A stretch of 64,000 nucleotides of DNA from Marinomonas primoryensis (lineage in GTDB: Bacteria; Pseudomonadota; Gammaproteobacteria; Pseudomonadales; Marinomonadaceae), in contig NZ_CP054301.1 of assembly GCF_013372285.1 (NCBI RefSeq), forward strand, positions 62,001 through 126,000, read 5' to 3'. The notes beneath the pieces were generated by a model, which worked only from the letters and a program-made list of their open reading frames with translations, did not search any database and had not been told where the DNA came from. Shown here piece by piece: positions 53,662 through 64,000 of the stretch (the stretch's first letter is position 1; each line of letters begins with the position of its first letter). A program made the translations under genes and the position numbers.

Positions 53662-55647
53662 TTATTTTAGTTCGTTGAGTCGATTTGCAATCGCATCGAT
53701 TTCTTTACTCATACGACTAAGGTGACTTGAGTCACTGGCATTGCTGCCTGTCAGTTCCTGCAATCGAGACACAAACATACTCAAATCCTGAGACACTTTT
53801 TGTTGTTCCCCAGCGGCTACGGAAATTTGCGTTGCTTGGTCCGTAATTTGCGAGAACGCATCCACCACCTGCTGTAAATGGCTTGCTGTTGATTCTGCGG
53901 TTGTTACGGCCCTTTCTGTTTCACTGTGACCAAGCTCCATTGAGGTAACAGATTCTTTAGACGCTATTTGTAAGCGGCCTAGTACCTGCTCAATCTCGAC
54001 CGCGGAGCTTTCACTTTTCGCCGCAAGATTTCGAACTTCATCAGCCACCACTGCAAACCCACGACCCGTTTCACCGGCCCGTGCAGCTTCGATAGCGGCG
54101 TTTAGTGCCAATAAGTTAGTTTGCTCTGCGATATCTCGGATCACGCCTAACATGCCATTGGCGCGACGACTGTCTTCATCGAGTTGGAGGATGTTTGTCT
54201 GTGCTTGTTTCATCGCACTGGTTAATGAACGCATGGTTTCAATAACCGTATTCATTTCTTTACCACTGTTACGAACGTCCTTATGTATCCGCTCAACGGT
54301 AACTTTAGTTTCGTTGGCGTACATGGCGACATCATGAGAAGTGGCACCGAGCTGTTCAGTCGCCGCGGCAAGCGTGATATTTTCATCGCTCAAACTGTTG
54401 GCTTTGCTTAAAAAGTCGTTACTAAATTTGCTTAGACGACCCGCATCACCCACTAGGTTCGCGGACTCTATGTGAATCTGTTCAAGCAATTTTTTCAACT
54501 TATCGCCATAAGCGTTAACGGCTTGACGTAAATCGCCCAGTTCATTCAACTTACCAACAACCAACTCTTGAGTACTGCCACCATCGGCTAGGTCTTGGAT
54601 TTGCTGCGTCGTTTGATTGACCTTACCCAGTAAGCTGCGGAAAAAGGAAACGGCAATGATGCTAACAATGATTAACAACGCGCCGATCGTTAGCATAAGG
54701 AACCACCCCATATTCTGGGCCGTTTCTATCATGCGAGCTTTGGGAACGACTAAACCAATCGTCCAACCTGTTTGAGGGTGTTTGAATAAATCAACATAAG
54801 CCGCACCACCCAAGATCTCATCATAATCAAGAGAGACGACTTGTTTGCTACCGGTCAGCTTAACCAGCGCGGGTTTCAACCAAGGTAATTCGCTTCCAAG
54901 TTGGTTTGCGGTCAGCATGCTGCCATCATTTTTGACTAAAGCGGCTTGGCCTTTTGGAAAACTTAATACTTGCCCCGTTTGGTCAATAGCGAATACATAA
55001 CCTTGATTTTCTGTGCCATATTTTTCTAGCGTTTTCGTGATGCCATCCAACATCATATCGACAGTGGAGACTCCGGTGAATTTACTGTTCTCTTTCATTG
55101 GAATCGTACAGGTCACCATTGGAATGTTCGTGACAGGGTCAATGTAGGCTTCAGACCATGCACAAAGCTTAACCGATGCGGTTTTACCGACTTTGTACCA
55201 ACCTTCGTTATGATACCCAGACCCTGCTGGGTCATTATAATCATCTAAATAGCTCATTTTAGAACCATCGCGGCCCCAGAAAAAACTGCGACGCTCTGTT
55301 CCCTTATTAAAAGCAGAGGGCTCGGGCCAAATACCACCACCAGCAATGCTTTTGTCGTCGTGATTGTTAATAATGCTAGGAAATACTTTTTTGAAGAGGG
55401 CTTCATCTTTAGGAAGCTGAGAACCCGCGATAGCCAGTGTGCTGGTGAGAAGTTGAATTTTTTCCAGCTTCGCGCTGAGTAGTTCACTTAATCCTTGTTG
55501 GTTAACGGCTATTTGTTTTTGGCGTTCATCGGTTAGATCGGGCTTTACTTTTACTTCAATGACGAGATAAATACTGGCTAGAGCGAGTAAAAGAATAACG
55601 ACTAAGCCTATACCTATCTGCTGACTGATTCTAAGGGGGGACTTCAT
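53662..55647 (-). CDS. Methyl-accepting chemotaxis protein with dCACHE sensor
   Basis: A 661-aa transmembrane chemoreceptor. TM1 spans about residues 11-30, then a long periplasmic dCACHE-type domain (about 35-310, with [16 protein letters not shown] and GWYKVGK, ligand-pocket-like), TM2 about 312-335, HAMP, and the cytoplasmic signalling hairpin whose tip is [20 protein letters not shown]. No C-terminal NWETF-type pentapeptide is seen. The ligand is unknown; dCACHE receptors often bind amino acids or carboxylates. It is followed by DeoR upstream, but is not clearly linked. Confidence 0.94.
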
Positions 55648-55805: not shown

Positions 55806-55847
55806 TTAATACAGTATTTCAATATCCTGATAACTGAAGGTGCTTAA
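55806..55847 (-). pseudogene. Diverged second copy of the deoR 3' end
   Basis: Directly after the deoR stop, a 42-bp segment on the same strand reads LSTFSYQDIEILY-stop. It mirrors the actual end of the gene, LSTLTYQGVEILY-stop, with 8 of 42 bases different and 4 residues changed conservatively. The two copies overlap by the shared TTAA. It looks like the surviving 3' end of an older homologous regulator gene. Confidence 0.8.
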
Positions 55848-56593
55848 TACAATATTTCGACGCCCTGATAAGTGAGAGTGCTTAATAAAGCAGGTGCAGG
55901 TTGTTGGTCGGTGATGACGCAATCATAATCGCTCATTTTCCCCCACAAACAGCGAGACTCCGTATCGAATTTGGTGCTGTCGATCACCAAAATACGATAG
56001 TGGCAATGTTCTACTAACGCTTCTCTGGCCATGACTTCTTCGTCGGTAAAATCAAACAAATGCCCTTGTTTATTGGTTGCCGCGACGGAAAAAATACCAA
56101 TGTCGGCGCGATAACGCTGGAAAAAACGCATGGCATCTCCGCCAATCACATCTTGGTCGCGCATTCGCACTCGACCGCCTGAAATCGTCAGCTCGCAATC
56201 TGGGTGTTCACATAAGTTGCGCGCGGCATGCAGATTGGTCGTCATTACTTGTAGACCTTTGAACGGTGCGAGTTGGCTAGCCACTTCAGCAACACTTGAA
56301 CCGCTGCCGAGAAAGATCGATTGATAATCCGCAATCTTGCTCACACAAAGGTCGGCAATATGCTTTTTGCCTGCGGCATGGCGAATCCGTCGTTGGTCAA
56401 AACTGATATTTTCGCGATGAGGAAACGGAATTACTTCGCCGTGGCTACGCAGTATTAGTCCTTTTTCTGCTAATAATCGAATGTCCGAACGAATGGTTTG
56501 CACCGAAACCGAAAACTGGTCTGCGACGGCTTGTAATGTCTGCCGCCCTTGTAAATTCACCCATTGGACAATGTCATAGTGGCGCTTATTCAT
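55844..56593 (-). CDS. DeoR-family transcriptional repressor
   Basis: A 249-aa regulator with an N-terminal HTH (LQAVADQFSVSVQTIRSDIRLLAEKGLILRSHG, abbreviated: about 20-50) and a DeoRC sugar-phosphate-binding domain with FLGSGSSVAEVA and TNLHAARNL. It is divergent from the transporter operon starting at 56738, across a gap that carries TTTCG/CGAAA repeats. DeoR-family ligands are usually phosphorylated metabolites, which fits an operon of phosphatases. The 3' end is duplicated in diverged form. Confidence 0.9.
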   Translation of the reverse strand: MNKRHYDIVQWVNLQGRQTLQAVADQFSVSVQTIRSDIRLLAEKGLILRSHGEVIPFPHRENISFDQRRIRHAAGKKHIADLCVSKIADYQSIFLGSGSSVAEVASQLAPFKGLQVMTTNLHAARNLCEHPDCELTISGGRVRMRDQDVIGGDAMRFFQRYRADIGIFSVAATNKQGHLFDFTDEEVMAREALVEHCHYRILVIDSTKFDTESRCLWGKMSDYDCVITDQQPAPALLSTLTYQGVEILY

Positions 56594-56620: not shown

Positions 56621-56666
56621 TTTCGAGATGATTTTCGAAACGAAAGAAAACCACCATTAAACGAAA
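56621..56666. promoter_or_regulatory. Putative DeoR operator cluster
   Basis: TTTCG at 56621-56625, a perfect palindrome TTTCGAAACGAAA at 56633-56645 and a further CGAAA at 56662-56666, all in the gap between deoR and the transporter operon. TTTCG/CGAAA half sites are typical of DeoR-family repressors. Binding is inferred. Confidence 0.6.
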
Positions 56667-56737
56667 ACTTTTTGTCACTATAGTGTCAAATTATGTCGGT
56701 ATTGTTGCAGCTCCCTTACCAAAAAGAGAGTTTCCCA

Positions 56738-57715
56738 ATGACCGTCAAGAAGACTTTATTGATATGCGCAGCGGCACTTGCTTTTCCTCTTTCTGCGCAA
56801 GCTCAAGAGACGTTGACCCTGTACACCAGTCAGCCAAACAAAGACGCGCAAATGACAGTGGACGCTTTTGAAGCGGCAAACCCAGACATTAAAGTGGAAT
56901 GGGTTCGCGATGGCACCACGAAATTGATGACTAAGTTGCGCGCTGAATTGTCTTCCGGCGTGGTGAAACCTGATGTGTTGTTAATCGCCGACAGCGTGAC
57001 CATGGAATCCATGGTGTCGGACGGTTATTTAGAATCCTATTTAAGCCCTAATCGCACACAATACGAAGACAGCTTATACAGCGACAAGGGTTATTACTAC
57101 GGCACAAAATTGATCACGACGGGCATTGTGCGTCATCAAAAAGCACTACAACAACCAACCGATTGGTCGGATCTGGTGAAGCCTGAGTATAAAAATCAAG
57201 TAGCGATGCCAAGCCCTTTGTATTCTGGCGCCGCGCTGATTCACCTTGCGACGTTAACGGATGACAAATCGCTGGGTTGGAATTACTACGAGCAATTGCA
57301 TGCTAATCAAATGAAAGCACAAGGTGGCAACGGTGGCGTATTGAAAGCCGTTGCGTCAGGTACAAAACCTTATGGTGTGATTGTGGATTTCTTGGCAATT
57401 CGCGAAGCAGCGAAAGGCTCGCCAATCGAGTTTATCTTCCCTAAAACGGGCGTAAGCATGGTGACGGAACCTGTTGCCATTATGAAAGGCGCGAAAAACA
57501 AAGTGGCCGCGAAGCGTTTTGTTGATTTTCTATTGTCCAAAGACGGCCAGCAGCTGGTATTGGAGCAAGGTTATTTGCCCGCACGTGGTGACATCGGCGT
57601 CCCAGCCGGTTTTCCTAAGCGTGACGCGATTCGTTTGATGCCATTCGATGCGGCGAAGACACTAGAAAACAATGAAGTGAATAAAGCCCGCTTCAGCAAG
57701 ATCTTTGAAGGTTAA
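56738..57715 (+). CDS. ABC-transporter periplasmic binding protein (Fe3+/phosphonate type)
   Basis: A 325-aa class-II (FbpA/AfuA-like) binding protein with a signal peptide cut near SAQA. The mature start ETLTLYTSQPNKDAQ, the block ELSSGVVKPDVLLIADS and KNQVAMPSPLYSGAALIHLA match the family that also binds sugar phosphates and 2-aminoethylphosphonate. The ferric-binding paired Tyr-Tyr is not evident, so an organic phosphate is plausible. ATG 56738 gives a normal signal peptide; the frame opens at 56693. First gene of the six-gene operon. Confidence 0.88.
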   Translation: MTVKKTLLICAAALAFPLSAQAQETLTLYTSQPNKDAQMTVDAFEAANPDIKVEWVRDGTTKLMTKLRAELSSGVVKPDVLLIADSVTMESMVSDGYLESYLSPNRTQYEDSLYSDKGYYYGTKLITTGIVRHQKALQQPTDWSDLVKPEYKNQVAMPSPLYSGAALIHLATLTDDKSLGWNYYEQLHANQMKAQGGNGGVLKAVASGTKPYGVIVDFLAIREAAKGSPIEFIFPKTGVSMVTEPVAIMKGAKNKVAAKRFVDFLLSKDGQQLVLEQGYLPARGDIGVPAGFPKRDAIRLMPFDAAKTLENNEVNKARFSKIFEG

Positions 57716-57720
57716 GCAGA

Positions 57721-59448
57721 ATGACACCTTCTTTGTTAAAAGCACGTGTGATGGATGGATTGACGATGGACAGCCAGCTTCGCTGGTTGTCCATCGGACT
57801 CTTCATATTGATTGCGACCTTGAGCGTCGTGCCCAGTTTGCGCTTGCTGGTGGAAGCGCTAAGTCATGTTACCTTTTCGGCATCATCACCTTTGGCAGAA
57901 GTATTACGCAGTGAGCGTACTTGGGTTGCCTTGAGAAACAGTTTTTATACGTCTGGTTTAGGCACCTTGATTGCGGTGATTCTGGGTTGCGGTTTTGGCT
58001 TTATTGTCACCTTGACGAACATTCGTGGTCGCGCAATTTGGGTGTTTTGTTTCATGTTGCCGATGATGATTCCACCTCAAGTCACGGCGTTGAGCTGGTT
58101 ACAATTGTTTGGTCCTGCGAGTCCTATTTTAAACACCTTGGGCATTGCGCCAGCGTTAGGCAGCCCGCAGCCGATGTATTCAGCAGAAGGCATTGCCTTG
58201 TTGTTGGGCATCCAAAGTGCGCCTTTGGTGTATCTCGCGCTTCGAACGCAACTCATTGCATTACCGCAAGACTTAATGGAAGCCGCACAGCTGGCGAAAG
58301 CGTCTCAGTGCCGAGTTTGGTTCGACATCATCGTGCCGCTGTGTCGTAGTGCGATTATCGCGGGTGCCGCATTGGCATTTGTTTCGTCGCTGGGTAATTT
58401 TGGTATTCCTGCGATGCTGGGTATTCCCGCCGGTTACATTGTTTTACCCACTTTGATTTATCAGCAAATGGCGGGATTCGGTAACGATATGCTGAGCCAA
58501 GTGGCTGGGCTGTCGATGATCATCGCTTTATTGGTGTTGGCGGGCATGTTGTTACAGCAATGGTTACAGCAACGTAGCCGTTATGCCTTGTTGGGTCACA
58601 CAGCCCAGTCGATTTCGTTTCGGTTACAGCGCTGGCGTTTGCCATTGGAAGTACTGTTGGCCTTGGTACTTTGCTTTATTTTGGTGGCGCCTTTGTTTGC
58701 TTTGGTCGTCAGTTCGCTCGTGCCTGCTTTGGGCATGTCGCTGACGTCCGACACCATTACCTTGTCTGCATTTTACGAGATGATCAGCCGCCAAGGCGTT
58801 ACTTCAAGAGCGTTTGAAAACAGCGCCTTCTTGGCCTTCTCATGCGCTTTGGTGTTGATGCTAGTGTCCTTACCTTTGGGCTATTTGTTGATGCGTTTAC
58901 CAATGCGCACCAGAGCTGTGATTGCCAGCTTGATCGAAGTGCCTTACGCCATCCCCAGTATTGTTTTGGCGATCGCCTTTATCTTGTTGTTTGCCAAGCC
59001 ATTACCTTTTATCGAAGTGAGTTTGTACGGCACGTTGGGGATTATTTTCTTGGCGTACCTTTCTTGCTTTTTGAGCGTGTGCTTGAAGCCAGTGTTAAGT
59101 GCGATGTCACAGCTAGACCCAGCATTAGAAGAAGCCGCTCAGCTTGCTGGTGCAAGACCAATACAGCGTTTGATCGACATTATTTTACCTCTTACAGCAC
59201 CGGCTTTTTTTGCGGGTGGATTATTGGTGTTTCTCATCTCGATTAATGAGCTGACGGTGTCGGCTTTGTTGTGGAGTGCGGGTAACGAAACCTTAGGCGT
59301 GCTGATTTTTAACTTAGATGAAAGTGGCGACAGCGTACTGGCTTCTGCCATTGCCGTGCTGGTGGTGTTACTGGTTGCAGGGCTGATGAGCCTATTGAGC
59401 TTGTTTGCTTCGCGTCTGCCAAAAGGAGTGATTCCATGGCACGATTAA
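57721..59448 (+). CDS. ABC-transporter permease, fused two-domain (FbpB/PhnV type)
   Basis: A 575-aa membrane protein with two BPD_transp_1 domains in tandem, as in FbpB, ThiP or AfuB-type permeases, about 12 membrane segments. EAA loops are EAAQLAKASQCRVWFDIIVP in the first half and EEAAQLAGARPIQRLIDIIL in the second. It starts five bases after the binding-protein stop and overlaps the ATPase gene by 13 bases. Confidence 0.93.
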   Translation: MTPSLLKARVMDGLTMDSQLRWLSIGLFILIATLSVVPSLRLLVEALSHVTFSASSPLAEVLRSERTWVALRNSFYTSGLGTLIAVILGCGFGFIVTLTNIRGRAIWVFCFMLPMMIPPQVTALSWLQLFGPASPILNTLGIAPALGSPQPMYSAEGIALLLGIQSAPLVYLALRTQLIALPQDLMEAAQLAKASQCRVWFDIIVPLCRSAIIAGAALAFVSSLGNFGIPAMLGIPAGYIVLPTLIYQQMAGFGNDMLSQVAGLSMIIALLVLAGMLLQQWLQQRSRYALLGHTAQSISFRLQRWRLPLEVLLALVLCFILVAPLFALVVSSLVPALGMSLTSDTITLSAFYEMISRQGVTSRAFENSAFLAFSCALVLMLVSLPLGYLLMRLPMRTRAVIASLIEVPYAIPSIVLAIAFILLFAKPLPFIEVSLYGTLGIIFLAYLSCFLSVCLKPVLSAMSQLDPALEEAAQLAGARPIQRLIDIILPLTAPAFFAGGLLVFLISINELTVSALLWSAGNETLGVLIFNLDESGDSVLASAIAVLVVLLVAGLMSLLSLFASRLPKGVIPWHD

Positions 59449-60494
59449 TATTAGACAACCTACATAAATCTTTTCATGGCGATCCCGTTGTTAAAGGCTT
59501 GAGTTTGACCATTGAACCGGGCGAGTTTGTCGCGCTGCTTGGTCCGAGTGGCTGTGGTAAATCGACGATTTTAAGAATGTTAGCGGGATTTGAACCCGTT
59601 TCAGACGGACAAATTATTCACGGTACGGACTGTCTTTCGAGCGCAAAGCGACATGTTCCCACCGAAGATAGAAACTTCGGCATGGTTTTTCAATCCTACG
59701 CACTGTGGCCGCACATGAGCGTAAAAGACAATGTCGGTTATCCGCTTAAGGTGCAAAAAATCCCTGCCGCCGAGCGCAATCGACGCATCCAAGAAGCGTT
59801 AGAGATCGTTCAGCTTGAAGACTATGCCGATCGATTACCAGCGCAGCTTAGCGGCGGACAACGTCAGCGTGTGGCATTGGCGCGAAGTTTGGTGACTGAA
59901 CCGGATGTGGTGTTGTTTGACGAGCCGCTGGCGAATTTAGATCGTCATTTACGTGCCACCATGGAAGAAACCTTTCGAGCGTTTCACAAGCGCACCGGAG
60001 CGACCATCGTTTATGTGACTCATGATCAATCCGAAGCCATGTCGTTGGCGGATCACATCGCGGTATTAAACAAAGGCCAACTTGTGCAATGGGGAACGCC
60101 ACAGGAATTGTACGCCACGCCGAAGAACACTTGGCTGGCGAACTTTATTGGTCGAGGTTCCGTATTAAACGTGGAAGCGATTGCGCCACAGCAATACATT
60201 AATAGCGCCGATTTACATCGTTTGATTGATGGCTATTTGCCACAAACAGTCTCCAGCAATGTGTTGGTTCGACCGCAAGATATTGCGTTTGTTGATGCGA
60301 GCGCCGATGTGGCGAATTCAAAACCGCTCGCAGTGACCGTTCGCCACTGTATTTTCCGTGGAGAGCGTTATGACATCGAGTTAATGCTAAACAATGGCCA
60401 GACGTTATCGGCCTACAGCGATGTGCCGATGACACTTGAAAGCGTGCATCATGTGCGTCTTGGGCAAGCTTGGTCGCTTGAGAGTGAATCATGA
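59436..60494 (+). CDS. ABC-transporter ATPase (FbpC/PotA type)
   Basis: A 352-aa ATPase with Walker A GPSGCGKST (36-44), signature QLSGGQRQRVALARSL, Walker B VVLFDEPLANLD, the switch His in VTHDQ and a C-terminal TOBE-like regulatory domain (about 240-350). It energises the preceding permease and overlaps both its neighbours (13 bases and 4 bases), so all three are translated together. Confidence 0.95.
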   Translation: MARLILDNLHKSFHGDPVVKGLSLTIEPGEFVALLGPSGCGKSTILRMLAGFEPVSDGQIIHGTDCLSSAKRHVPTEDRNFGMVFQSYALWPHMSVKDNVGYPLKVQKIPAAERNRRIQEALEIVQLEDYADRLPAQLSGGQRQRVALARSLVTEPDVVLFDEPLANLDRHLRATMEETFRAFHKRTGATIVYVTHDQSEAMSLADHIAVLNKGQLVQWGTPQELYATPKNTWLANFIGRGSVLNVEAIAPQQYINSADLHRLIDGYLPQTVSSNVLVRPQDIAFVDASADVANSKPLAVTVRHCIFRGERYDIELMLNNGQTLSAYSDVPMTLESVHHVRLGQAWSLESES

Positions 60495-61606
60495 AGGTCT
60501 GCGTTGAGATTCTCAGCGGCGCAGGTCGAAAAACGGCGGCGGCTATTTTGATCACTTATCAAGCGTCACCTCACGCTCGAACGCTGCGTTTTTTGCTCGA
60601 TGCTGGTGGCGCGTTAGAAGCAGGCGAAGCCAAAGGCTGGACACAACCTGACAATCTCGATGCTATTTTCATTTCCCACGATCACCAAGATCACATGGGC
60701 GGATTAGACGACGTAGATATCAAGGTACCGGTTTATGCGACCTTGTTGGTGCAGCAACAGCTGCCGAGTCATCTGAATCTACAGACCTTGCCGGTTTGCG
60801 GCACGACGGTGGTTGAAGGCGTTGAAGTCACCACTGGTTCCGCTGGGCATTCGTTTGGCGGCATTTGGCTACACCTTAATATTGGGAAGGGGGTGTTTTA
60901 CAGCGGTGATTTCAGTCTGGAATCTACCCTGTATCCTTTCACCATGCCGCCGAAAGCCAGCATCGCCTTGCTCGATGCATCCTATGGTTTATATGACAAT
61001 TCGTTAGAGCAATGCAAAAGTGCCTTGGTGAATTTCCTTGGCGATGAACGAGCGTTGTTGATGCCGGTACCACAAAGTGGACGCGCGTTAGAAATTGCCT
61101 GTTGGCTCACATCCTTTGGTTTCGATGATTGGACTTTAGGCGAAGATTGTTTGTCGCCAGAGTCCGCTTTGGCGGCACCAATAGAAGGTATTTGCACCGA
61201 GGTTCGTCCTATCTTAGAACGCATTAAGAGTCAGCCGTTTAACCCAGATGCCAAGGTGGTGTTATGCGGTGATCCCGATGGCATGAGCGGCGAAGCGGCG
61301 GTGTTATTACAGCAGCCCGAGCGTTATTTACCCGTTTATACCGGACATCTTCCTGAACACGCCCGACAAGCCGTCAGCGAAGACAAGGCGCATTTTGTCC
61401 GTTGGAATGTGCATCCGCGTAAGCGAGATTTAAAGCGCCTTGTCGATCATCTTGAGTGCGATGTGTGCTCGCCGCTCTTTCATCACATGAAAGACCTAAA
61501 TGAATGGAAAACCGCCCTTGGTTCTAGTGTGACGTCACAGGCAAATATTACACAGACTTATCTTTCACAGAGCAAAATTGAGCAACATTATGACGTTAAC
61601 CCATAA
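60491..61606 (+). CDS. MBL-fold hydrolase with beta-CASP-like motifs
   Basis: A 371-aa metallo-beta-lactamase protein. Metal motifs are complete: LLDAG (start), His63/His65/Asp67/His68 in SHDHQDH, His120 in GSAGHS and Asp140 in YSGDF. Beyond them lies LLDASYG (like beta-CASP motif A, ESTYG), a His in YTGHLP (286) and one in NVHPRKRD (308), which resemble motifs B and C of the RNase J/CPSF73 group. So a nuclease or cyclic-phosphodiesterase-type activity is possible; this is inference. It overlaps the ATPase gene by four bases. Confidence 0.82.
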   Translation: MKVCVEILSGAGRKTAAAILITYQASPHARTLRFLLDAGGALEAGEAKGWTQPDNLDAIFISHDHQDHMGGLDDVDIKVPVYATLLVQQQLPSHLNLQTLPVCGTTVVEGVEVTTGSAGHSFGGIWLHLNIGKGVFYSGDFSLESTLYPFTMPPKASIALLDASYGLYDNSLEQCKSALVNFLGDERALLMPVPQSGRALEIACWLTSFGFDDWTLGEDCLSPESALAAPIEGICTEVRPILERIKSQPFNPDAKVVLCGDPDGMSGEAAVLLQQPERYLPVYTGHLPEHARQAVSEDKAHFVRWNVHPRKRDLKRLVDHLECDVCSPLFHHMKDLNEWKTALGSSVTSQANITQTYLSQSKIEQHYDVNP

Positions 61607-62144
61607 ACCCTTTGTGTTCGCACGCCACGCTCAGAGTACGTTTAATGCTAATTATCTTATTGGTGGTTTTACTGATAGTCCGTTGAGTGAAAAAGGCGTT
61701 CAACAAGCCCAACAAGCGGCGCCGATTCTAAGTGTTATTGAGTGGAGCGCGGTGATTACCAGCACACTACAACGCACACAACAAACCGCGCTTCATGCAG
61801 TGCCAGAGCAAGCTATAGTGCCTTACGAACAGCTTAAAGAGCGCAATTGGGGCGATTTAGAAGGTTGTCCGATTGAGCAGCAACTCGCCTACGAAATTAC
61901 GCCGCCTAATGGCGAATCTTGGCAAGACTTTGAAACGCGCGTGATCAGCACGCTAAACACCATTTTAAGTGAACATGATTGGCCGTTAATCATTGCGCAT
62001 TCAGGCGTGTACCGCGTGTTGAACAATATCATTAATGGCACACCGTATTGCCCCAGAATTGGCAACGTGACCCCGATTTCTTTCGTTCCCAGCCAAGATG
62101 AAAACGGCTGGACTATTACCCCATTTAAAGGAAAAGTTTTATGA
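61590..62144 (+). CDS. Histidine phosphatase family protein
   Basis: A 184-aa phosphoglycerate-mutase-like phosphatase. The catalytic motif is ARHAQS (RHA in place of RHG, His13), with the proton donor in the ERNWGDLEG stretch and the second His in IIAHSGVYR. The ATG at 61590 lies 17 bases inside the MBL gene's 3' end; a TTG at 61578 is in frame but less likely. Members dephosphorylate small phosphomonoesters. It is coupled to both neighbours. Confidence 0.87.
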   Translation: MTLTHKPFVFARHAQSTFNANYLIGGFTDSPLSEKGVQQAQQAAPILSVIEWSAVITSTLQRTQQTALHAVPEQAIVPYEQLKERNWGDLEGCPIEQQLAYEITPPNGESWQDFETRVISTLNTILSEHDWPLIIAHSGVYRVLNNIINGTPYCPRIGNVTPISFVPSQDENGWTITPFKGKVL

Positions 62145-62593
62145 TGCCAAACGCCGTTATTGTTGATTTAGATGGCACCCTTGCTGAATTTGATCACACT
62201 CAAGTTGCCCATTGGGTATTGGGTGCTGAAAAACACTGGGACCCGTTCTTCGAACACATGAAGCATGCGCCAGTGATTGAAGATATATTGCGTTTGGTGA
62301 ATATTCTCAAGCAACAAGGTCAACATATTTTGATTTGCAGTGGTCGCCCAGAATCTCATAAACAGCACTCGCTTGAATGGATTCAAAAAAACAATATACC
62401 GTGCGATGGCATTTATCTTCGCCCAGAAGGCGCCGATGCCGTGCCTGATGAAGAGGTGAAAAAAGCCTTGTTAGAGCAAATTCATGCGGATGGTTTTTCC
62501 CCTTGGTTGGTGTTGGATGATCGCGATGCCGTCGTTAAAGGTTGGCGTAATTTGGGACTGACTTGCTTACAGTGCGCGCCGGGGGACTTTTAA
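62141..62593 (+). CDS. HAD phosphatase like the 3'-phosphatase domain of T4 polynucleotide kinase
   Basis: A 150-aa HAD enzyme. Motif I is VDLDGTLA (Asp9, Asp11), motif II CSGRPES, motif III/IV LDDRDAVVKGW, and the end LTCLQCAPGDF corresponds to the C-terminus of T4 Pnkp (DDRTQVVEMW ... QVASGDF). Stand-alone phosphatases of this type remove 3'-phosphates from nucleic acids or small phosphoesters. Its ATG overlaps the preceding stop (ATGA), and a terminator follows. Confidence 0.85.
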   Translation: MMPNAVIVDLDGTLAEFDHTQVAHWVLGAEKHWDPFFEHMKHAPVIEDILRLVNILKQQGQHILICSGRPESHKQHSLEWIQKNNIPCDGIYLRPEGADAVPDEEVKKALLEQIHADGFSPWLVLDDRDAVVKGWRNLGLTCLQCAPGDF

Positions 62594-62863: not shown

Positions 62864-62938
62864 AGCAATGTATTCTAGTGTTTAGCCATGTGTTCATGCT
62901 CGCGCTAGCATGATGGATTTGTCTTTGGAGTCGTGTCC

Positions 62939-64000
62939 ATGTTTCAACTTGTTCTTCTTAGTAATCAAAAACATATTGATGTTGGTAATTTGTCGCTGTC
63001 CGCAGAATTAATGGGCTTGCCTAAAGACATTCCGATTAGCATTCGACAAACTTGTTTGATGGGCGGGAAGCAAACAGGTTCTCGATTGATTACGTTAACC
63101 GTTGGCGATTCTGTCGTGCGGATTGTGCCGACACGCGGCATGGCGGTTCTGGATGTCGTTAGGAAAAATGTGGCTGGAGAAGACATTCGATTTGGTTGGG
63201 ATTCTCCTGTTAAGGAAGTGGTTCACCCGAGCTTTATTCATCAAGAAGCGTCTGGCGGCATCGGTTGGTTGGATGGTTTTAATGAAATGATTGTGCGCTG
63301 TGGTTATCAATGGGCAGGGCATCCAGGCCAAGACGGCGATGAGTTTTTGACCTTGCATGGACGAATCCAAAACACGCCCGCTGACGAGGTGATTTTAGAA
63401 GTCGAGCAAGAGCCGCCTTATCGTGTGACGTTACGCGGTCGAGTCGACGAAAAACGCTTTAAGTTCACTAACTTTGAATTGCAAACGGCCTTGTCTTTGA
63501 CGCCAGACGAACCCTATTTGTTGGTCGAAGACACGCTGACCAACAAAGGCAGTTACCCGCGCGAATACCAAGCGATTTATCACAATAATTTTGCGCAACC
63601 GATTCTTGAAAAGGGCGCGCAGCTGCATGTTCCTATTGCGGAACTGTCGCCTTTTAATGACTACGCTGTAGGCGGTTTGAGTGACTGGAACCAAATGCCA
63701 GCGCCAACGAAAGACTTTGATGAAATGGTGTTTAATATTCGACCACTGAGCGACGAGAATGGCTTTTCTCATGCTTTATTACACAATGCCAGCGGACGCT
63801 GCGGCATAGAAGTGAGTTATCAAACGGACACCTTGCCCGTGCTGACCGTGTGGAAAAATACGGACACGGTAGAGCAAGGTTATGTTGTCGGCATCGAACC
63901 GGGCACCAGCTTTGCGTATAACCGTTCTTATCAGCGCGGTTTAGGCTTGGTGCCGACAATTGACGCAGGTGAATCAAAACACTTTGTGGTGCGATTTGGC
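62939..64000 (+). CDS. DUF4432 family protein (aldose-1-epimerase-like), cut by window edge
   Basis: The frame opens at the ATG 62939 (GGAG upstream) and runs past the window end; at least 354 aa are seen. VVRIVPTRGMAVLDVVRKN, LDGFNEMIVRCG and the block LTLHGRIQNTPA are DUF4432 signatures; this family shares the galactose-mutarotase fold and probably acts on sugars. It lies after the lipoprotein gene and could belong to a new operon. Not classifiable further from the partial sequence. Confidence 0.85.
   Translation, partial: MFQLVLLSNQKHIDVGNLSLSAELMGLPKDIPISIRQTCLMGGKQTGSRLITLTVGDSVVRIVPTRGMAVLDVVRKNVAGEDIRFGWDSPVKEVVHPSFIHQEASGGIGWLDGFNEMIVRCGYQWAGHPGQDGDEFLTLHGRIQNTPADEVILEVEQEPPYRVTLRGRVDEKRFKFTNFELQTALSLTPDEPYLLVEDTLTNKGSYPREYQAIYHNNFAQPILEKGAQLHVPIAELSPFNDYAVGGLSDWNQMPAPTKDFDEMVFNIRPLSDENGFSHALLHNASGRCGIEVSYQTDTLPVLTVWKNTDTVEQGYVVGIEPGTSFAYNRSYQRGLGLVPTIDAGESKHFVVRFG

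Follow-up and report, generated by a model that had tools for sequence, protein, structure and literature searches.

A conserved operon joining an ABC importer to a beta-CASP-type hydrolase and exchangeable phosphatases: a probable phosphodiester-scavenging unit in Marinomonas and other bacteria

The intact uptake of dissolved organic phosphorus compounds by bacteria, followed by their intracellular breakdown, is poorly known. In Escherichia coli the UgpBAEC-UgpQ system, a member of the Pho regulon, combines import of glycerophosphodiesters with a cytoplasmic phosphodiesterase, and the agrocinopine acc operon of Agrobacterium unites an importer, a phosphodiesterase and a phosphatase under common regulation, dedicated to an opine. 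Nucleic acids are the substrates of the known beta-CASP enzymes and, as far as we are aware, the family is known only as nucleases, so that a member acting on small molecules would be unusual. Nor are we aware of any MBL or phosphatase genes within the operons of the AfuABC and P5PAB importers. AfuABC had itself been misnamed as an iron importer (PMC4546632). Here we describe an operon that places a beta-CASP-type MBL protein and phosphatases behind an importer of this broad kind.

Gene arrangement and distribution

The operon occupies positions 56738-62593 of the window, by which we mean the whole 64,000-nucleotide stretch of Marinomonas primoryensis DNA that was analyzed, and is divergent from a DeoR-type gene. 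The features of the region are:

55844..56593, minus strand: DeoR/GlpR-type regulator (DeoRC 1.2e-37, HTH_DeoR 1.3e-12; best NCBIfam model GlpR-like, below cut-off)
56638..56646, plus strand: AAACGAAAG, a putative DeoR half-site that lies within TTTTCGAAACGAAAG and is unchanged in 12 Marinomonas sequences
56659..56667, plus strand: second putative DeoR half-site AAACGAAAA, with AAACGAAA invariant in 12 Marinomonas sequences
56672..56689, plus strand: Pho-box-like site TTGTCACTATAGTGTCAA (TGTCA-N6-TGTCA), with GTCACTATA and TGTCAAA invariant in Marinomonas
56738..57715, plus strand: periplasmic binding protein (SBP), FbpA/AfuA/PhnS2-like (SBP_bac_6 5e-27; signal peptide MTVKKTLLICAAALAFPLSAQA)
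57721..59448, plus strand: two-domain fused ABC permease (gap +5; BPD_transp_1 in two stretches; PhnU2-like 4.8e-51, below cut-off)
59436..60494, plus strand: ABC ATPase (junction -13; ABC_tran 2.3e-36, TOBE_2)
60491..61606, plus strand: putative phosphodiesterase, a cytoplasmic beta-CASP-group hydrolase with an MBL fold (junction -4; Lactamase_B_2 1.6e-09)
61590..62144, plus strand: histidine phosphatase (HisPhos), branch 1, CobC-like (junction -17; His_Phos_1 2e-29)
62141..62593, plus strand: HAD phosphatase, PNKP 3'-phosphatase type (junction -4; HAD_PNKP 9.7e-29)

The original prediction had described six genes running in one direction; our open reading frames reproduce its coordinates and junctions exactly, and profile matches agree with the families that it had assigned. 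An alternative in-frame start of the SBP gene, an ATG at 56693, lies upstream and adjoins the Pho-box-like site. A DUF4432 gene begins downstream at 62933, and we left it out of the operon because it is about 340 bases away and is found in only part of Marinomonas.

The MBL gene lies beside the same importer in 79 loci, spanning 28 sampled genera and plasmid records, with the SBP, permease and ATPase all recognized next to it in 77 of these. Within Marinomonas the SBP and MBL are found in the identical 18 of 37 genomes. This recurrence and co-occurrence rule out a chance neighborhood, and conserved synteny extends beyond the ABC genes, contrary to one of the outcomes that the original prediction had named as its refutation. 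The module is carried by about 4% of the sampled Pseudomonadota genomes and by 13% of those from one sampled alphaproteobacterial order. We found no description of the gene set in the titles and abstracts of the literature searched, a body of text to which most subscription journals do not contribute. The original prediction, too, knew of no characterized pathway with this set. The module is apparently widespread yet undescribed.

The MBL protein and the replacement of enzymes beside a conserved SBP

Searches of the PDB with an MBL profile recovered aCPSF1 (5.7e-32) and CPSF73 (7e-31) ahead of any other family, and no PhnP-named chain was seen among the 60 best matches, which led us to reject PhnP as the family of this protein. 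In its AF2 model (pLDDT 94.1; like that of the SBP, built from alignments without the plasmid-record sequences) the 50 best Foldseek matches were all beta-CASP proteins, with TMq values of 0.60-0.79. The MBL motifs 1-4 (D, HxHxDH, H, D) are present, with H63, H65, D67, H68, H120 and D140 found in 79/79 loci and D37 in at least 95% of them. Residues fitting the beta-CASP motifs A (D/E), B (H) and C (H), as lettered by ourselves, are D162 (in DASYG) and H308, both in 79/79 loci, and H286, in at least 90%. At 371 residues the protein is shorter than the known beta-CASP nucleases, which have at least 431. By profile, predicted fold and motifs, it is a relative of the CPSF73/RNase J nucleases in reduced form. 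The original prediction had missed this beta-CASP relationship.

Catalytic residues are kept in all the operon enzymes. The histidine phosphatase conserves R16-H17, R66, E88 and H141 in 54 loci, and the HAD protein, whose solved relatives are Pnkp1 and T4 Pnkp, conserves D9-x-D11-G-T, S67, K107 and D126-D127. The complement of phosphatases differs between loci: HisPhos with HAD in 41 of the 79, HisPhos in 12, DUSP in 10, SurE in 6, HAD in 3 and none that we could recognize in 7. Since a single phosphatase was recognized in 31/79 loci and none in those 7, the proposal of dephosphorylation in two steps does not hold as a general feature. A Na/Pi cotransporter gene adjoins three of the six SurE loci, with a PhoU domain in the one tested. 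In three Rhizobiales genomes, which form one clade, the place of the MBL beside an orthologous SBP is taken by a cytoplasmic EEP (exonuclease/endonuclease/phosphatase) protein together with a Nudix-box-like protein, and several further SBP orthologues occur with neither enzyme; these, and the 7 loci without a recognized phosphatase, count against the pathway proposed below.

Throughout these changes the SBP retains 41-84% identity. On the SBP tree the enzyme set changed at least 13 times; the phosphatase types are largely clade-specific, and the loci therefore represent about 13 changes rather than 79 independent ones. That phosphatases have been replaced, and the MBL by other phosphoesterases, while the SBP was conserved speaks for a phosphodiester or phosphate ester being imported and then hydrolyzed. 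The original inference is to that extent largely supported, apart from its two-step part.

Upstream sites and the nature of the substrate

Among 43 dereplicated loci, Pho-box-like sites with at least 13/18 matches occur at 56% of operon starts, compared with 4.5% in a control set of 200 genes (p 3.6e-12), an enrichment limited to the forward strand. The EEP-type operons likewise possess such sites, and the exact pattern occurs at 13 sites in the genome versus 3 for a reversed control. The window's own site matches the generic consensus at 12/18 positions, which taken alone is no better than shuffles, and its support is comparative. These sites point to phosphorus scavenging, and on their account we infer control of the operon by PhoB. 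The Marinomonas intergenic region also keeps two operator-like AAACGAAA repeats; the 9-mer of the first half-site is by itself not rare. A DeoR-type gene accompanies 44/44 loci with a HAD phosphatase, including all those with both HisPhos and HAD, and other loci have LacI or SorC regulators. The divergent gene and the conserved putative repeats suggest that DeoR, too, would control the operon, in keeping with the link originally drawn.

Database names would make this a ferric-iron importer with incidental enzymes: plasmid records call the permease an 'iron ABC transporter permease', and the SBP fold is similar to that of FbpA/FutA. However, FbpA requires an adjacent pair of tyrosines for iron, and the family alignment of the SBP contains no invariant pair of this type, its invariant tyrosines (Y29, Y101, Y162 and Y212) being nowhere adjacent. 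Together with the conserved coupling to phosphoesterases and the Pho-box-like sites, this led us to reject iron import; the 'Fe3+' label of the original prediction is unlikely, and the reading as a whole is scarcely credible. An AfuABC-like importer of a phosphomonoester or bisphosphate, trimmed by the phosphatases while the MBL serves a side reaction, would suit the sugar-type regulators and the predicted structure of the SBP (pLDDT 90.4), whose best-matching folds are VcA0625/AfuA, MctA and FbpA, with AfuA/VcA0625 its closest solved relatives. The phosphate-site positions of AfuA (Ser37, Ser148-Gly149; PMC8427247) correspond to the invariant T60 and S163-G164 of the SBP, but its sugar-binding His205, Asp206 and Glu229 (PMC4546632) align with V216, D217 and V242, so that only Asp206 has an acidic counterpart. 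Membership in the AfuA type was therefore rejected, and since no single phosphatase is as constant across the 79 loci as the MBL, we regard this alternative as quite improbable.

A phosphonate or phosphonate ester substrate, with the MBL as an esterase or PhnP stand-in, is suggested by the NCBIfam comparisons, in which the nearest models are PhnS2 for the SBP (9.8e-44) and PhnU2 for the permease. Yet the scores lie well below the equivalog cut-offs (149.8 bits against 392.75 for PhnS2, 174 against 593.25 for PhnU2 and 317.1 against 457.7 for PhnT2, the ATPase model), and we did not place the importer in that group. In favor of it, three genomes have phnD-phnE-DUF1045-phnM-phnN directly ahead of the module (in one of them the whole stretch was read); this linkage, which also speaks for the wider phosphorus-scavenging reading, is confined to one genus. 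C-P lyase is present in 45/69 carrier genomes but in only 3 of the 18 Marinomonas carriers, the other 15 thereby excluding a strict link, and nearly all loci have phosphatases in place of C-P cleaving enzymes; phosphonates are accordingly a doubtful choice. A special case of phosphodiester import is that the substrate derives from RNA or DNA breakdown, whether as 2',3'-cyclic nucleotides, as 3'-nucleotides or as very short oligonucleotides. The MBL would then be a nuclease for small substrates or a cyclic phosphodiesterase, and the phosphatases would serve as nucleotidases. The MBL is nearest to the RNases CPSF73, aCPSF1 and RNase J, the HAD protein is of the PNKP 3'-phosphatase type, the SurE of one clade is annotated as a 5'/3'-nucleotidase, the EEP substitute is closest to the DNases ExeM/NucH and exonuclease III, and a Thermus relative of the SBP comes after a YmdB-type phosphodiesterase gene. 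Against this, no nucleosidase or nucleoside kinase was recognized in the operons, the ligands of SBP relatives are small (G6P, PLP, citrate), and the LacI, SorC and DeoR regulators suggest a sugar effector. This narrower version is conceivable, though on balance unlikely.

Proposed pathway and comparison with known systems

We consider it probable that the operon is a phosphorus-scavenging unit under PhoB and DeoR control, in which an intact phosphodiester is imported, cut in the cytoplasm and its product dephosphorylated. Expression would occur under phosphate limitation (PhoB) and in the presence of the specific substrate (DeoR). The SBP would capture a small molecule bearing a phosphate ester, most likely an intact phosphodiester, and the fused permease and ATPase would carry it into the cytoplasm. 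There the beta-CASP-type metallohydrolase may convert the phosphodiester to a phosphomonoester, from which HisPhos and the PNKP-type HAD protein would then free inorganic phosphate, leaving an alcohol (sugar, polyol or nucleoside) to general metabolism. More tentatively, a beta-CASP enzyme could have been turned into the small-molecule phosphodiesterase of a phosphate-starvation importer, making the module a widespread, unnamed route to environmental phosphodiester as a phosphorus source, with exchangeable downstream phosphatases. The module is now annotated as an iron importer; if this reading is true, it would add a phosphodiester route and would carry beta-CASP enzymes beyond nucleic-acid processing. 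It also offers a testable rule for re-annotation, namely that of 'iron' importers encoded beside an MBL and a phosphatase.

The proposed logic is that of UgpBAEC-UgpQ, with PhoB-type control (here predicted), uptake of a phosphodiester by an ABC importer and its cleavage in the cytoplasm, but the SBP family is unrelated, a beta-CASP MBL stands in place of GDPD, and there are dedicated phosphatases and a DeoR, LacI or SorC regulator. As in the acc operon, an importer, a phosphodiesterase (here putative) and a phosphatase are found in one operon, whereas the transporter and enzyme families differ and acc is tied to its opine. AfuABC (PMC4546632) and P5PAB (PMC8427247) belong to the same transporter superfamily and have equivalent phosphate-site positions, although two of the three sugar-binding residues of AfuA are valine here. 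The 2-aminoethylphosphonate importers AepX/PhnS2-PhnU2-PhnT2 provide the best or near-best NCBIfam models, fused permease included, but all subunits fall short of those models' cut-offs and most loci are without phosphonate-degrading enzymes. With the beta-CASP nucleases (CPSF73, aCPSF1, TTHA0252 and RNase J) the MBL shares its fold, motifs 1-4 and residues fitting motifs A, B and C; unlike them it is shorter, has no KH domain and is encoded in an importer operon, where its substrate is presumably a small molecule.

The operon and its conservation

Within the window (G000:C1:62001-126000 of the Marinomonas genome), a check of open reading frames returned the same six ORFs, strands and junctions (+5, -13, -4, -17 and -4) as the original prediction, which had proposed import and hydrolysis of a phosphodiester or multiply phosphorylated compound. 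Family searches showed that the transporter subunits are of the FbpA/AfuA/PhnS2 type and identified the three enzymes, with a DeoR gene divergent from the operon:

55844-56593 (-) DeoR regulator
56738-57715 (+) substrate-binding protein (SBP)
57721-59448 (+) fused permease
59436-60494 (+) ATPase
60491-61606 (+) metallo-beta-lactamase (MBL) hydrolase
61590-62144 (+) branch-1 histidine phosphatase (HisPhos)
62141-62593 (+) HAD_PNKP phosphatase

The six-gene unit is conserved. MBL homologues were gathered from named contigs, whole-genome samples and plasmids, and 79 MBL loci were annotated with profiles built from seeds. The SBP, permease and ATPase adjoin the MBL in 77 of these, one subunit being unrecognised in the other two (L044 and L141). 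MBL-positive genomes numbered 17/399, 26/197 and 9/199 in three samples, together covering 28 different genera, and in Marinomonas the SBP and MBL co-occur in an identical 18 of the 37 genomes searched for both. Clinical plasmids of Enterobacter cloacae and E. hormaechei (L041, L042) carry the SBP-permease-ATPase-MBL-HisPhos set; p48880_VIM_4 of this group is a 267-kb plasmid typed as conjugative, with an IS5-like element shortly upstream of the operon.

Downstream of the operon, a DUF4432 (aldose-epimerase-like) gene, present in part of Marinomonas, spans 62933-64000 and reaches the window end. Adjoining the DeoR gene, 53662-55647 encodes a chemoreceptor-like protein (methyl-accepting domain, by eye), with an equal-length ORF at this position in several other Marinomonas loci; its signal is possibly the same compound as that of the operon.

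Exchange of enzymes around the binding protein

The MBL, barely classifiable from single-sequence searches, is matched as a family profile by aCPSF1 (5.7e-32), CPSF73 (7.2e-31) and TTHA0252 (2.4e-27), and the best 50 PDB matches of its AF2 model (pLDDT 94.1) are beta-CASP proteins only. At 371 aa it is shorter than the solved beta-CASP members. The alignment suggests counterparts of motifs 1-4, A, B and C in D37, H63-x-H65-x-D67-H68, H120, D140, D162 (in DASYG), H286 and H308, with a putative assignment of letters.

The phosphatases following the MBL differ among the 79 loci:

HisPhos and HAD, 41
HisPhos, 12
DUSP, 10
SurE, 6
HAD, 3
none recognised, 7

In the proteins tested, Pfam matched SurE, Na_Pi_cotrans with PhoU, His_Phos_1 and HAD_PNKP; DSPc was matched in two of three DUSP proteins, below the curated cut-off, and the third (L047) had no Pfam match, its assignment coming from the record label and the profile built here. 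Catalytic residues are retained in all phosphatase families. DUSP is paired with LacI, SurE with SorC and HAD with DeoR regulators. The SBPs are 41-84% identical to that of the window, with over 50 invariant columns in an alignment of 28 members. Mapping the enzyme sets on the SBP tree requires at least 13 changes; thus, the phosphatase types are mostly clade-specific, with several real replacements.

In one alphaproteobacterial genus (L142, L143 and L144, from G994, G1092 and G1064) the module lies downstream of phnD-phnE-DUF1045-phnM-phnN and in the same orientation (as read in L142), and no phosphatase was recognised 3' of the MBL; in a fourth species (L140) the module lies elsewhere, behind a DnaJ-like gene. 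Beside one SurE-type operon, a convergent set (L136:10548-15413) weakly matches the HisPhos, ATPase, permease and SBP profiles, and is perhaps a second related importer.

The MBL itself is replaced in three Rhizobiales genomes, this clade name, like others here, being drawn from gene content and named relatives. Downstream of their SBP, permease and ATPase orthologues come an exonuclease/endonuclease/phosphatase (EEP) family protein without evident signal peptide and then Nudix-like and PhzF-like proteins:

L175:4136-9067
L176:3520-9614
L177:8388-14041

The EEP assignment is from Pfam for L176 and L177 and from likeness to these two for L175; that of the Nudix-like protein was by its Nudix box, by eye, with no match in Pfam or NCBIfam. 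The ATPase-to-EEP spacing is 50-70 bases in L175 and L177. In Thermus oshimai a more distant SBP relative lies directly downstream of a YmdB-type metallophosphoesterase gene, while further SBP orthologues had no recognised diesterase in their neighbourhood. Thermus plasmids (L170, L171) carry a distant SBP relative whose neighbours are a gene for a phytase-like esterase and a second ABC importer, of the sugar type.

Pho-box-like sites at the operon starts

The 144-base DeoR-SBP intergenic region contains two AAACGAAA repeats and TTGTCACTATAGTGTCAA (56672-56689), all kept in 12 Marinomonas sequences while the flanks drift. More distant Marinomonas loci (L011, L032, L033, L037) keep a spaced TGTCA or GTCA pair and have lost the central palindrome.

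In 43 dereplicated loci, operon starts scored higher against the Pho-box consensus than dinucleotide shuffles did (p 1.9e-8), and higher than the reverse strand (p 1.4e-6), which itself was not above shuffles (p 0.07). Matches of at least 13/18 occur in 56% of operon starts versus 4.5% of control genes (200, taken from these loci; p 3.6e-12). All these p-values overstate independence because the loci are related. MBL-less and EEP-type operons also have good sites, such as CTGTCACATCTCTGTCAA. The exact pattern occurs 13 times in the window's genome versus 3 for a reversed control; two other sites precede pstC-like and PAP2-phosphatase genes (translations, by eye), and others precede genes that look unrelated, such as a putA-like one (by eye).

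Function and ligand

We favour a role in scavenging phosphorus from an imported phosphodiester on several lines taken together: the conservation of the SBP and its phosphate-type site, the exchange of diesterases and phosphatases whose active sites stay intact, the Pho-box-like sites, the Na/Pi cotransporter gene adjoining 3 of the 6 SurE-type loci and the module behind the phn genes in one lineage. The compound would be imported and digested, with a presumed order of reactions. As to the substrate, the enzyme families (PNKP, SurE, beta-CASP and DNase-like EEP) lean toward nucleotides, and the regulators toward a sugar or polyol moiety.

The nearest solved structures to the SBP are AfuA and VcA0625 (G6P), P5PA (PLP), MctA (citrate) and FbpA. 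Iron was considered as a ligand; no adjacent tyrosine pair is invariant in the SBP family alignment, which argues against it. In AfuA, Ser37, Ser148, Gly149 and their neighbours contact the phosphate, and His205, Asp206 and Glu229 the sugar (PMC4546632, PMC8427247). The former align with T60 and S163-G164 of the SBP, and the latter with V216, D217 and V242. Relative to AfuA the phosphate end is thus retained and the sugar end altered, and therefore the SBP is probably a phosphate-ester binder that accommodates a different organic part.
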